DNA of 39,214 nt from Acidobacteriaceae bacterium. Its GTDB lineage: Bacteria; Acidobacteriota; Terriglobia; Terriglobales; Acidobacteriaceae. Numbering within the stretch: the stretch's first letter is position 1; each line of letters opens with the position of its first letter. Shown piece after piece: positions 16,055-39,115 of this stretch. The DNA lies in assembly GCA_027323885.1 (NCBI GenBank), contig DAHVZT010000145.1, positions 1-39,214 on the forward strand, read 5' to 3'. A program made the position numbers and the translations under genes. A model generated the notes under the pieces. The model was not told the origin of the DNA. It ran no database searches and saw only the letters and a list, made by a program, of their open reading frames with translations.

Positions 16055-17062
16055 ATGAACGACCAGGCCCCCCAGGGGGCGCACAGCCGAACCAGGAGGC
16101 ATGTGCCGGTTCTTTTAGAAGAAGCAATACGGTTTTTGCGAATCCTGCCGGGCGGCACCTATGTGGATGCCACGCTCGGCCTGGCCGGGCACAGTTTGGA
16201 AATTGCCCGGCGCCTGGGTCCCGAAGGCCACCTGATCGCATTCGATCGCGATCCGGAGGCCATTGAGACCGCGGAGGCGAGGTTCACGGAGTTACGAGCG
16301 GAACTGAAAGATCAGACGCCGCGCATCACGATCCACGCCGAAGCGTTTGCCGAGCTTGCAAAGAGAACAGAACCGCGGAGTCTGGACGGGATACTGGCCG
16401 ACTTCGGGGTCAGCTCGCTGCAACTGGACACAGCGCAAAGAGGATTCAGTTTTCAGGCAGACGCGCCGCTTGACATGCGGATGGACCCGCGCAGCGGAGT
16501 GACTGCCGAACAAGTGGTAAATCAGGCGGGCGAGGAAGAGCTTGCAAATCTGATTTACGAATTCGGAGAGGAAAGGAGGTCGCGGAGAATCGCCAGAGCA
16601 ATTGTCAGGGCGCGGCCTGTGACGACCACGGCACAACTGGCCAGAGTCGTTGCAAGCAGCGCCCCGGCAATAAAAAGCGATCGCATTCATCCGGCGACGA
16701 GAGTCTTTCAGGCGCTCCGAATTTATGTGAATGGGGAACTCGACCAAATCACCGCACTGCTGCAGCAAGCGCCGAAGTTGTTACGGTCAGGCGGTAGGAT
16801 GGTGGCGATCAGTTTCCATTCGCTCGAAGACCGTATCGTGAAAGATGCCTTTCGAGAGGGAAGAACAAGCGGAACCTGGCAGGTGCTGACGCCCAAGCCG
16901 GTGACCGCAACGGAACTTGAGATTCGCGGCAACCCGCGTTCGCGCAGTGCCAAATTACGCGCGGCCGAGCGGATGGCTGAGCCGGACAGCTCCAGCAGCA
17001 AGTTTGAACGAAAGCCGGGAATGAAACCCGGCAGGCAGAAAGACAAAAGTTTACGGCGCTAG
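16055..17062 (+). CDS. rsmH: 16S rRNA (cytosine-N4)-methyltransferase RsmH
   Basis: HVPVLLEEAIRFL, DATLGLAGHSLEI, LADFGVSSLQLDTAQRGFSF, RVFQALRIYVN, ISFHSLEDRIVK. Confidence 0.95.
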   Translation: MNDQAPQGAHSRTRRHVPVLLEEAIRFLRILPGGTYVDATLGLAGHSLEIARRLGPEGHLIAFDRDPEAIETAEARFTELRAELKDQTPRITIHAEAFAELAKRTEPRSLDGILADFGVSSLQLDTAQRGFSFQADAPLDMRMDPRSGVTAEQVVNQAGEEELANLIYEFGEERRSRRIARAIVRARPVTTTAQLARVVASSAPAIKSDRIHPATRVFQALRIYVNGELDQITALLQQAPKLLRSGGRMVAISFHSLEDRIVKDAFREGRTSGTWQVLTPKPVTATELEIRGNPRSRSAKLRAAERMAEPDSSSSKFERKPGMKPGRQKDKSLRR

Positions 17063-17099
17063 CCGAATTCGGCAGCGCCGGGCAGGATCGGGCCGGGTT

Positions 17100-17227
17100 T
17101 GTCCCACCCTTCTTTCAGGCGAAAGAACAGCGCACATAGAACGTCCCCAATCCCTCCAAGCTCAACGAGCCTGGCCCGAAGAAGTTGAGGGATTGCCTGA
17201 GAAGCAAGGACCCGGAAATGTGGGACA
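17100..17227. repeat. Putative degenerate intergenic repeat cluster in the rsmH-ftsL spacer
   Basis: TGTCCCAC (17100-17107) inverted as GTGGGACA (17220-17227); internal hairpin TTCTTTC-AGGC-GAAAGAA (17110-17127); a minus-strand reading gives NPSTSSGQAR, resembling translations of dispersed intergenic repeats. Confidence 0.45.
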
Positions 17228-17338
17228 CACAAAGATTGAGGCCCGTGCAACGGTACGCGGCCAATCGCAGCAGCGGAGAGCCCAGTTGGGGGACTGCCTT
17301 TCCGTCCACGTCGACCAAACATTCGAGGAGGCAAAGTT

Positions 17339-17458
17339 ATGTCGCACATATATGACTTTTTTGACAATCACATGGAAGTGTCGGGCGCCGTTATTTTCGG
17401 TGTCCTGACCGTGGCTGCCTGCGTAGCCATCGCCGCGGCAATCAGCGGAGTCATGTAG
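17339..17458 (+). CDS. 39-aa single-TM small protein inside the dcw cluster
   Basis: ATG at 17339 preceded by GAGGAGG SD at ~7 nt; translation MSHIYDFFDNHMEVSGAVIFGVLTVAACVAIAAAISGVM then TAG; hydrophobic C-terminal two-thirds. Absent from the ORF track, probably because it is below its length cutoff. Confidence 0.7.
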   Translation: MSHIYDFFDNHMEVSGAVIFGVLTVAACVAIAAAISGVM

Positions 17459-17518: not shown

Positions 17519-18037
17519 ATGGCAGCAGCGCGCGTCGTACTCGAGAGTTTTCGGGAGAAGGGTCATTGGAGCGCCGAAACGGCAATGGAGCACAACCGAT
17601 GGCTGTTCGCGGCACAACAACGCGCCCGTCGCGGACCCACTCCTGAAGTCTTTTTCGAAAAGCGTTTGGACAATTCTCGTCTGGTAAAAGCCGACGATCC
17701 TGTCCGTAAGCGCGAGATGCGCAGCTTTTCCGTTGCCGCGGTTTTCTTTTTCGTTTTTCTCATGCTTTATAGTTGGCAGCACTTCAGCTCGATCGAGTAT
17801 GGCTATCGGATCGAGACCGAGCGGGCGCAGTTGCAGCACCTTCAGGATGAAAACCATCAACTGGGCCTGACGGAAGCGCAACTGACCCGCTCGGAGCGTA
17901 TTGACCGGCTGGCGCACCAGATCGGGATGCAATCTCCGCAACCCGGACAGACGATTTCTCCAGGTATGATGGACGGCAATCCTGAGGCGCCCGTTCTTGC
18001 ACAGGTAAGGGAACCAGCCATGCCCAATTTCCGGTAA
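17519..18037 (+). CDS. ftsL: FtsL-like cell division protein
   Basis: Position between rsmH and ftsI; single TM (SFSVAAVFFFVFLMLYSWQHF) followed by a coiled-coil-like segment (ETERAQLQHLQDENHQLGLTEAQLTRSERIDRLA). Confidence 0.75.
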   Translation: MAAARVVLESFREKGHWSAETAMEHNRWLFAAQQRARRGPTPEVFFEKRLDNSRLVKADDPVRKREMRSFSVAAVFFFVFLMLYSWQHFSSIEYGYRIETERAQLQHLQDENHQLGLTEAQLTRSERIDRLAHQIGMQSPQPGQTISPGMMDGNPEAPVLAQVREPAMPNFR

Positions 18038-37675: not shown

Positions 37676-39115
37676 ATGGAGCCGGATATGGCATTCGTCA
37701 CCGACAAAGCGGAACTCAAGCCGGGATTGGTGATCTTCCGGCGTGGCGACGTGGAGCACCGCATGTGGTACTGCCGGATGAAGATTCCGAAGGCAGACCG
37801 CTATAAGACTGTTTCCCTCAAGACAACCGACGCTGAAGTGGCGCGGGAGCGCGCCTTCGATCAGGACGCAGATATCCGGTTCCGCCTGAAGCATGATGTC
37901 CCGGTGTTCAATCATCCCTTCCGCGAGGTTGGAAGAGAGTATCTGCTAACGCAGGAAGCCCGAGCGCAGCGCGGGGAGATCAGCGCGGCGCGGCCCAAGA
38001 AGATTCGCGCCGTCATCGAAGGAGCCTTGGACAGGTATGTCGGTTCCACTCAGGTGCATTTGATCGGGGATGAACTATGGGGCGGCTATCCAGCGTGGCG
38101 GCGAGTGAACGGAGCGGGCCGCCTTAAGCGAAACGGCGTTCGCGAAGTCAGCGAGGAGATGGCGCGGGAGTTTGCGGACAAGGAAGCCGAGCGCCGCACC
38201 AAGACTCAGAATTCTCTCGGTATTCGTGTTCTGAAACCTATCAAGGTGGAACCGTCCGAGGAGCGGACGGTTCCCTTCATCAGTGATTCCACGATCCGCT
38301 TTGAGATGTCGATCTTCGGCGCTGTGATGAACTTCGCGATCAAGAAACGGTACGTTCCTGCGAGCCAGCGTTACGATGAGCGCCCCAAGCTCAAGACGAT
38401 GCGCAGAGATGAGTTCACGCTGGAGGAGTACCGCAAGCTCCATACCGTAGGCCGCAAGTGGATTGGTGAGGCCGACAAACCTTCGAGCATTTGGTATCGG
38501 ACTGTTACCTACAACATGATTCTGATTGCCTGCAATACCGGCATGAGGCCAGCGGAGATGAAGAATCTCCGCTGGCGCGACATCATGCCTGCAAAAGACC
38601 GCGAGGGCCGGGAGATCGTTGTTCTGTTCGTGCAAGGCAAAGGCAAGTCGCGCAAGCTGGTAGCGCCAAAGAGCGTTGGGGATTATTTAGAACGTATCCG
38701 TGCCATCTCCAAAGCAACGGCGTTGGAAGATCGGGTCTTTACGACGGTGAACGGCAAGCCTGCAAAGAGTCTCTATGTATCTTTGATCGCCGATCTTCTG
38801 GATAAAGCAAACCTGCGCGAAGGCACGCAGGGCGTGCCGAGATCGACCTACTGCTTTCGGCATACCTATGCCACGCTGCGATTGCAGGAGGGCGTGGACG
38901 TGTACTTCCTTGCTGAGCAGATGGGGACATCCGTGCAGATGATCGAGCAGCACTATGGGCATGTGAACACGATCAAGCACGCCGACCGTGTATTGCAGGG
39001 CATGGCAGGATGGGAGTTGCCGCATCCGGAAGTGGACGTTACCAGGGCGAAAGCGTCGAAGGCTGCGGAGACACACGATAAATCCAAGAGAGGTCAGCAC
39101 CGCAGGGCAGGCTGA
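37676..39115 (+). CDS. Tyrosine recombinase/phage-type integrase
   Basis: Catalytic motifs NTGMRPAEMKNLRW, GKGKSRK, CFRHTYATLRLQEG, EQHYGHVN. Confidence 0.93.
   Translation: MEPDMAFVTDKAELKPGLVIFRRGDVEHRMWYCRMKIPKADRYKTVSLKTTDAEVARERAFDQDADIRFRLKHDVPVFNHPFREVGREYLLTQEARAQRGEISAARPKKIRAVIEGALDRYVGSTQVHLIGDELWGGYPAWRRVNGAGRLKRNGVREVSEEMAREFADKEAERRTKTQNSLGIRVLKPIKVEPSEERTVPFISDSTIRFEMSIFGAVMNFAIKKRYVPASQRYDERPKLKTMRRDEFTLEEYRKLHTVGRKWIGEADKPSSIWYRTVTYNMILIACNTGMRPAEMKNLRWRDIMPAKDREGREIVVLFVQGKGKSRKLVAPKSVGDYLERIRAISKATALEDRVFTTVNGKPAKSLYVSLIADLLDKANLREGTQGVPRSTYCFRHTYATLRLQEGVDVYFLAEQMGTSVQMIEQHYGHVNTIKHADRVLQGMAGWELPHPEVDVTRAKASKAAETHDKSKRGQHRRAG

Follow-up and report, generated by a model that had tools for sequence, protein, structure and literature searches.

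A predicted 39-residue single-span membrane protein and a structured RNA between rsmH and ftsL in the dcw cluster of Acidobacteriaceae

The dcw cluster is among the most studied and most conserved bacterial gene clusters, and its standard gene order is mraZ-rsmH-ftsL-ftsI. In the stretch of DNA analyzed here (the window: 39,214 nucleotides of an Acidobacteriaceae bacterium, assembly GCA_027323885.1, contig DAHVZT010000145.1), the spacer between rsmH and an ftsL-like gene contains a short open reading frame (ORF) with its own ribosome-binding site and, further upstream, a structured RNA element (Table 1). The 39-codon product, read from the window sequence, is MSHIYDFFDNHMEVSGAVIFGVLTVAACVAIAAAISGVM, and the stop codon is TAG. 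This reading agrees in coordinates and sequence with the original prediction, which had placed a 39-aa ORF preceded by GAGGAGG between rsmH and ftsL. The ORF is separated by 276 nt from the end of rsmH and by 60 nt from the ftsL-like gene; the latter distance is 60-95 nt in the carrier loci compared. The small gene lies on the strand of rsmH and ftsL, and a consensus scan of the spacer found no sigma-70-like promoter; therefore, it is probably transcribed with the dcw cluster, from the early dcw transcript and downstream of the structured RNA.

Table 1. Features of the rsmH-ftsL region and related elements. Positions are those of the window unless a locus (L) is named.
Feature	Position	Strand	Basis or remark
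rsmH, upstream neighbour	16055-17062	+	TIGR00006, E=1e-92
Structured RNA element, ~120 nt	17087-17210	+	covariance model 101 bits; P1 covariation; no Rfam match
Helix P1, 5' strand	17088-17102	+	pairs with 17165-17179
Helix b, 5' strand, CAATCCCTC	17148-17156	+	pairs with 17187-17195; 9-bp match in the window
Helix P1, 3' strand	17165-17179	+	pairs with 17088-17102
Helix b, 3' strand, GAGGGATTG	17187-17195	+	pairs with 17148-17156
Possible leader hairpin, GGCCCGTGCAACGGTACGCGGCC	17240-17262	+	conservation by eye in the spacer alignment of gene-bearing genomes
Shine-Dalgarno sequence, GAGGAGG	17325-17331	+	direct reading; 7-nt spacer to ATG; GAGGAGG or a close variant at the same distance across the genus
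Gene of the 39-aa single-helix membrane protein (predicted)	17339-17458	+	ORF, syntenic homologues, purifying selection, predicted helix 2-38
ftsL-like gene, downstream neighbour	17519-18037	+	TIGR02209, E=1.4e-7, below curated cut-off; syntenic homologues
3' hairpins of sister species	L017 848-922; L015, L018, L019 ~2426-2500; L024, L025 ~2406-2500
Flagellar-cluster copies of the small gene	L058 7016-7195; L059 7055-7195		genus g13

Several features of the wider region were also recorded. The dcw cluster of the window is seemingly split after murF, where an esterase-like gene on the opposite strand follows (23537 onward). In four genomes carrying the small gene (G003, G007, G021, G025), mraY is located on a separate contig, and in G026, which has the RNA and lacks the small gene, mraY lies about 28 kb away. 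A tyrosine-recombinase-like ORF of 479 aa (37676-39115), noted by eye near the contig end, possibly marks the boundary of an integrated element.

Among 100 relatives searched, the small gene was detected in all ten sampled members of the genus (g1) and in genera g17 and g13, with no internal stops; identity to the window copy is 62-74% in the nine other members of the genus. An alignment search matched 16 of 398 family genomes. Two of these matches, in G301 and G384, are marginal, confined to the C-terminal part and located within longer open frames, and were dropped; the remainder belong to g1, g13, g17 and g107. The original prediction had advised searching the rsmH-ftsL spacer across Acidobacteria; homologues in this spacer in the genus and in g13, g17 and g107 are full-length, ungapped and stop-free, with the same start codon and a Shine-Dalgarno sequence. 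In loci fetched independently via the ftsL gene, the small gene is found at the matching position. Aligned upstream regions of the genus also retain the start codon and the ribosome-binding site, so that frame, start and Shine-Dalgarno sequence are conserved among close relatives; loss of the frame or of the Shine-Dalgarno sequence there would, according to the original prediction, have refuted it.

The substitution pattern is that of a protein-coding sequence. Within the genus, 17, 12 and 33 of the 39 columns vary at the first, second and third codon positions, respectively, the third positions varying most. The synonymous/nonsynonymous analysis proposed with the prediction yields a pN/pS of 0.22 in the true frame, the only one below 1 (1.25 and 1.66 in the two other frames), and pairwise comparison of the window copy with other genus members gives dN of 0.13-0.23 and dS of at least 1. 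Because the gene occupies the same place across four genera and is under purifying selection in its own frame, the ORF is almost certainly a genuine gene encoding a translated membrane protein, judging by these comparative data.

The gene is narrowly distributed. About 96% of the sampled family genomes lack it, the rsmH-ftsL spacer of the other Acidobacteriaceae loci compared is devoid of it, and it was not found outside the family in class and phylum genome samples. This distribution is in line with the earlier description of the gene as lineage-specific and foreign to the usual dcw set. In other relatives the spacer is occupied by a different gene, coding for a soluble protein of 51-57 aa unlike the 39-aa one, which abuts or overlaps the ftsL start (L046 2291-2446, L047 2282-2437, L048 2247-2420).

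The product is predicted to be a small single-span (bitopic) membrane protein. Hydropathy peaks over residues 17-35 (mean Kyte-Doolittle value 2.68), and AlphaFold2 models one continuous helix of residues 2-38 with a mean pLDDT of 88. The family alignment contains 11 invariant positions (M1, D9, E13, G16, A17, F20, C28, A30, A32, A34 and G37): conserved acidic residues precede the helix, and small residues run along it. The single small-residue-rich membrane segment originally proposed thus corresponds to one predicted helix with invariant small residues. Such a combination of acidic and small residues would suit packing on another membrane protein. A positively charged tail is missing from most family members.

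Searches of Pfam, NCBIfam and PHROG gave no match to the 39-aa protein above curated cut-offs. The best Pfam candidate, DUF2776 (16.6 bits against a cut-off of 26.1, E=0.005), the NCBIfam family CcoM (10 bits against a cut-off of 40) and a weak match to OppC_N, also below its curated cut-off, were dropped, and the best PHROG match reaches only E=0.15. A literature search on small dcw membrane proteins returned none within the terms tried. The protein is new to the family libraries searched and previously unnamed.

Copies of the gene also occur outside the dcw cluster, in three genomes. G006 possesses a second homologue, which shares 62% identity with the window protein. It is located on a 14.6-kb phage contig (L057, G006:C394), which may represent a prophage in the chromosome or a co-binned free phage and has genes for a terminase (PHROG 2, E=6e-25), a portal protein (PF04860, E=1e-52) and a head-tail adaptor; this copy sits between a gene for a 145-aa protein and a C92-type amidase gene. 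In G021 and G133 (g13), a copy is located within a flagellar cluster (CheX, CheY-like, FliN-type, FliM, FlhA). The flagellar copy of G133 contains an internal TGA, and that of G021 lacks the ATG of the family at the corresponding position. With copies on a phage contig and in a flagellar cluster, the family is not confined to the dcw cluster. The dcw site, which all four carrier genera have retained, is nevertheless the stable home of the gene, the other copies being sporadic.

A role of the protein can be proposed from these properties. The short polar N-terminus with the conserved D9 and E13 would lie at the membrane face, while the small-residue helix (G16, A17, C28, A30, A32, A34, G37) could pack on that of a partner protein. 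The best candidates for this partner would be FtsL and FtsI, which are encoded in the same operon, or the complex that they form; the protein could then tune division or septal wall synthesis, either as a regulator or as a small accessory subunit. That the partner belongs to the division or wall-synthesis machinery is a tentative suggestion, held at somewhat less than even odds. It derives from operon position only: the gene lies between rsmH and ftsL in all carrier genera (g1, g13, g17, g107). Speaking against a tie to division, the majority of the family divides although it lacks the small gene. Accordingly, of the original description as a lineage-specific small divisome or envelope protein, the envelope and lineage-specific parts are well supported, and the divisome part is suggested by position alone. 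The statement as a whole, in which a genuine single-span protein made from the dcw transcript serves as a small accessory or regulator of division or wall synthesis, is likewise possible but falls short of an even chance.

Among known proteins, SidA (29 aa) is reported to bind FtsW and FtsN (cited in PMC3567139). The 39-aa protein resembles regulators of the SidA type as a tiny single-span membrane protein with a proposed action on the division machinery; unlike SidA, it is encoded in the dcw cluster, and no sequence relation between the two is known. With FtsL and FtsB it shares a single span and a dcw location beside ftsL, but it is far shorter and has no periplasmic coiled coil, and the gene that follows is ftsL proper. 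In size and in having one membrane helix, the 39-aa protein is comparable to small hydrophobic accessory subunits and to type I toxins (for example CcoM and DinQ); it differs from them in the absence of a family match above cut-off, in its conserved operon position and in that no antitoxin RNA was seen.

Nearly as likely as the tuning of division is a function that is general or has nothing to do with division: the product might, for example, be a small subunit of a transporter or of a respiratory complex, or a membrane-stress peptide, with the gene residing in the dcw cluster merely for expression. The copies on the phage contig and in the flagellar cluster agree with such a role, as does the small number of genera carrying the gene, which is hence no core part of division. 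However, the dcw position in four of four carrier genera exceeds chance placement, and known small subunits such as CcoM give no match above cut-off.

Derivation from, or exchange with, phages, so that a lysis or exclusion membrane peptide became domesticated in the dcw cluster, is improbable. It is suggested by the homologue residing beside an amidase gene on a contig that also encodes a terminase and a portal protein, but this is a single phage contig. Small-ORF homologues were absent from IMG/VR, the phage collection and plasmids; IMG/VR relatives of the phage terminase have no similar small gene upstream of the terminase; the phage amidase as a query found none in IMG/VR and no further small gene, and neither did the neighbouring 145-aa gene used as a query reveal one. 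In addition, the phage copy is 56-64% identical to most g1 members, compared with 38-44% to those of g13 and g107, a pattern more readily explained by transfer from a g1-like host to the phage than by the opposite direction, although 39 residues are too few to root a tree.

A type I toxin-like membrane peptide checked by an antisense RNA would share the size, the single helix, the narrow distribution and the extra copies on mobile DNA. This is very unlikely for a gene whose Shine-Dalgarno sequence is strong and unhidden and whose synteny is stable over four genera. Furthermore, no described toxin family is matched in Pfam, most members lack the charged tail, and a consensus scan of the rsmH-ftsL spacer detected no antisense promoter-like site.

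Still lower is the probability that the ORF is a leader peptide, whose act of translation, and not its product, controls ftsL. Its position 60-95 nt before ftsL would allow this, and most sister species have a strong hairpin between the stop codon of the small gene and ftsL; that of G006 (L017) has the shape of an intrinsic terminator with eight T. But the amino acids are conserved end to end, in the pattern of a membrane helix, whereas synonymous sites are almost saturated; moreover, the window species has at most a weak 3' hairpin, and the phage copy is located away from ftsL. Given the hairpin or terminator after the gene in sister species, simple co-expression with ftsL cannot be assumed, and the coupling of the small gene to ftsL may differ between species. 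Folding z-scores of the possible leader hairpin upstream of the gene are weak (about -1.8 to +0.6) and suggestive only. A chance ORF, conceivable because short ORFs are numerous in the GC-rich DNA of the window, is refuted by frame-specific selection and conservation and has practically no probability left.

The second element of the spacer is the structured RNA. In the spacer alignment of the genus, the ORF is surpassed in conservation by a block far upstream of it, whose identity reaches 0.96 per 20 nt; this block is also found in family members without the small gene. Its layout is UCGGGCCGGGnUCGUCCCACC, GGCGAAAG, a pyrimidine run, ACGAnCCnGGCCCGA and a purine run. Of 300 family genomes searched with a covariance model containing helix P1 only, 81 have the RNA, each in a single copy; they represent 20 of 79 genera. 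The model detects the RNA in none of the sampled genomes outside the family. All 30 loci checked by motif (L115-L144) have rsmH beside the RNA on the same strand. In 27 of them ftsL follows the RNA; the ftsL motif was unseen in the remaining three, one of which is at a contig end. The RNA-bearing loci comprise L026, L027, L029, L039, L042 and L115-L164, among them those of the cultured Acidipila rosea (L029), Acidobacterium sp. S8 (L026) and strain KBS 83 (L039).

Both helices are supported by comparison between species. For P1 (15 bp), 98.4% of the cells in an alignment of 51 distinct sequences are paired, with both-side changes in 7 of 15 pairs (33 cells), although this alignment leans toward P1, which was included in the model. 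Such a number of both-side changes was reached in 0 of 500 shuffles, the signal was lost when the partner strand was slid, and the same trend appears in an unfitted alignment of 17 sequences. Helix b lies outside the model and was misaligned by MAFFT; it was therefore tested without alignment, by partner swapping. Own strands score 17.15, whereas strands swapped between species score 14.53 (sd 0.43), and 0 of 500 permutations reached the observed value. Shuffles of single sequences are mostly non-significant for helix b, and the helix is unconvincing in a number of genomes, including several from g35. Since the strands of helix b flank the 3' strand of P1, the two helices would interleave, and the comparative data support a pseudoknot. 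Folding of the whole spacer as a single sequence is uninformative (z=0.03).

Permissive searches with 4227 Rfam models gave no match, and the structured RNA is apparently undescribed so far. An interpretation of the spacer as a dispersed repeat was rejected, the spacer being single-copy in the genome. The RNA keeps a fixed position in one operon and on the same strand, as expected of a cis-regulator, and the simplest view is that it controls the dcw transcript in cis. Perfect DnaA boxes (TTATCCACA) occur in or near the rsmH-ftsL spacer of relatives without the RNA (L028, L030-L033, L048), and none are present in eight RNA-bearing loci compared.

Two groups of described RNAs are comparable. The mraW RNA motif (RF01746) is listed for actinomycetes (Actinomycetales) in the rsmH (mraW) region (PMC2864571). 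The spacer RNA is similarly structured and tied to this region of the dcw cluster; unlike the mraW motif, it is placed after rsmH and before ftsL, and it belongs to Acidobacteriaceae. Acido-1 (RF01686) and Acido-Lenti-1 (RF01687) are also structured RNAs of Acidobacteria, listed as not cis-regulatory, whereas the spacer RNA is fixed in one operon position. None of these Rfam models matches it, and kinship with the mraW motif or Acido-1 is unsupported.

The distributions of the RNA and of the small gene are independent of each other: in G127 the gene is present and no RNA is detectable, and most RNA-bearing genomes and genera lack the gene. The RNA is thus not specific to the small gene, which in the window lineage is placed between the RNA and ftsL. 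A more far-reaching reading, which remains rather unlikely in its entirety, would be that an undescribed class of pseudoknotted cis-regulatory RNA sets the expression of the downstream division genes, and that a new 39-residue septal regulator, also acquired by a phage, was inserted before ftsL in one lineage.

With a selected membrane gene added to the dcw cluster and a conserved structured RNA within it, there are two testable handles on the control of division in Acidobacteriaceae. If a copy of the small gene turns up in more phages, phages may act on that division step. Of the two results, the RNA is the broader and the less expected one, being found in 20 genera, cultured strains included, at one fixed place.
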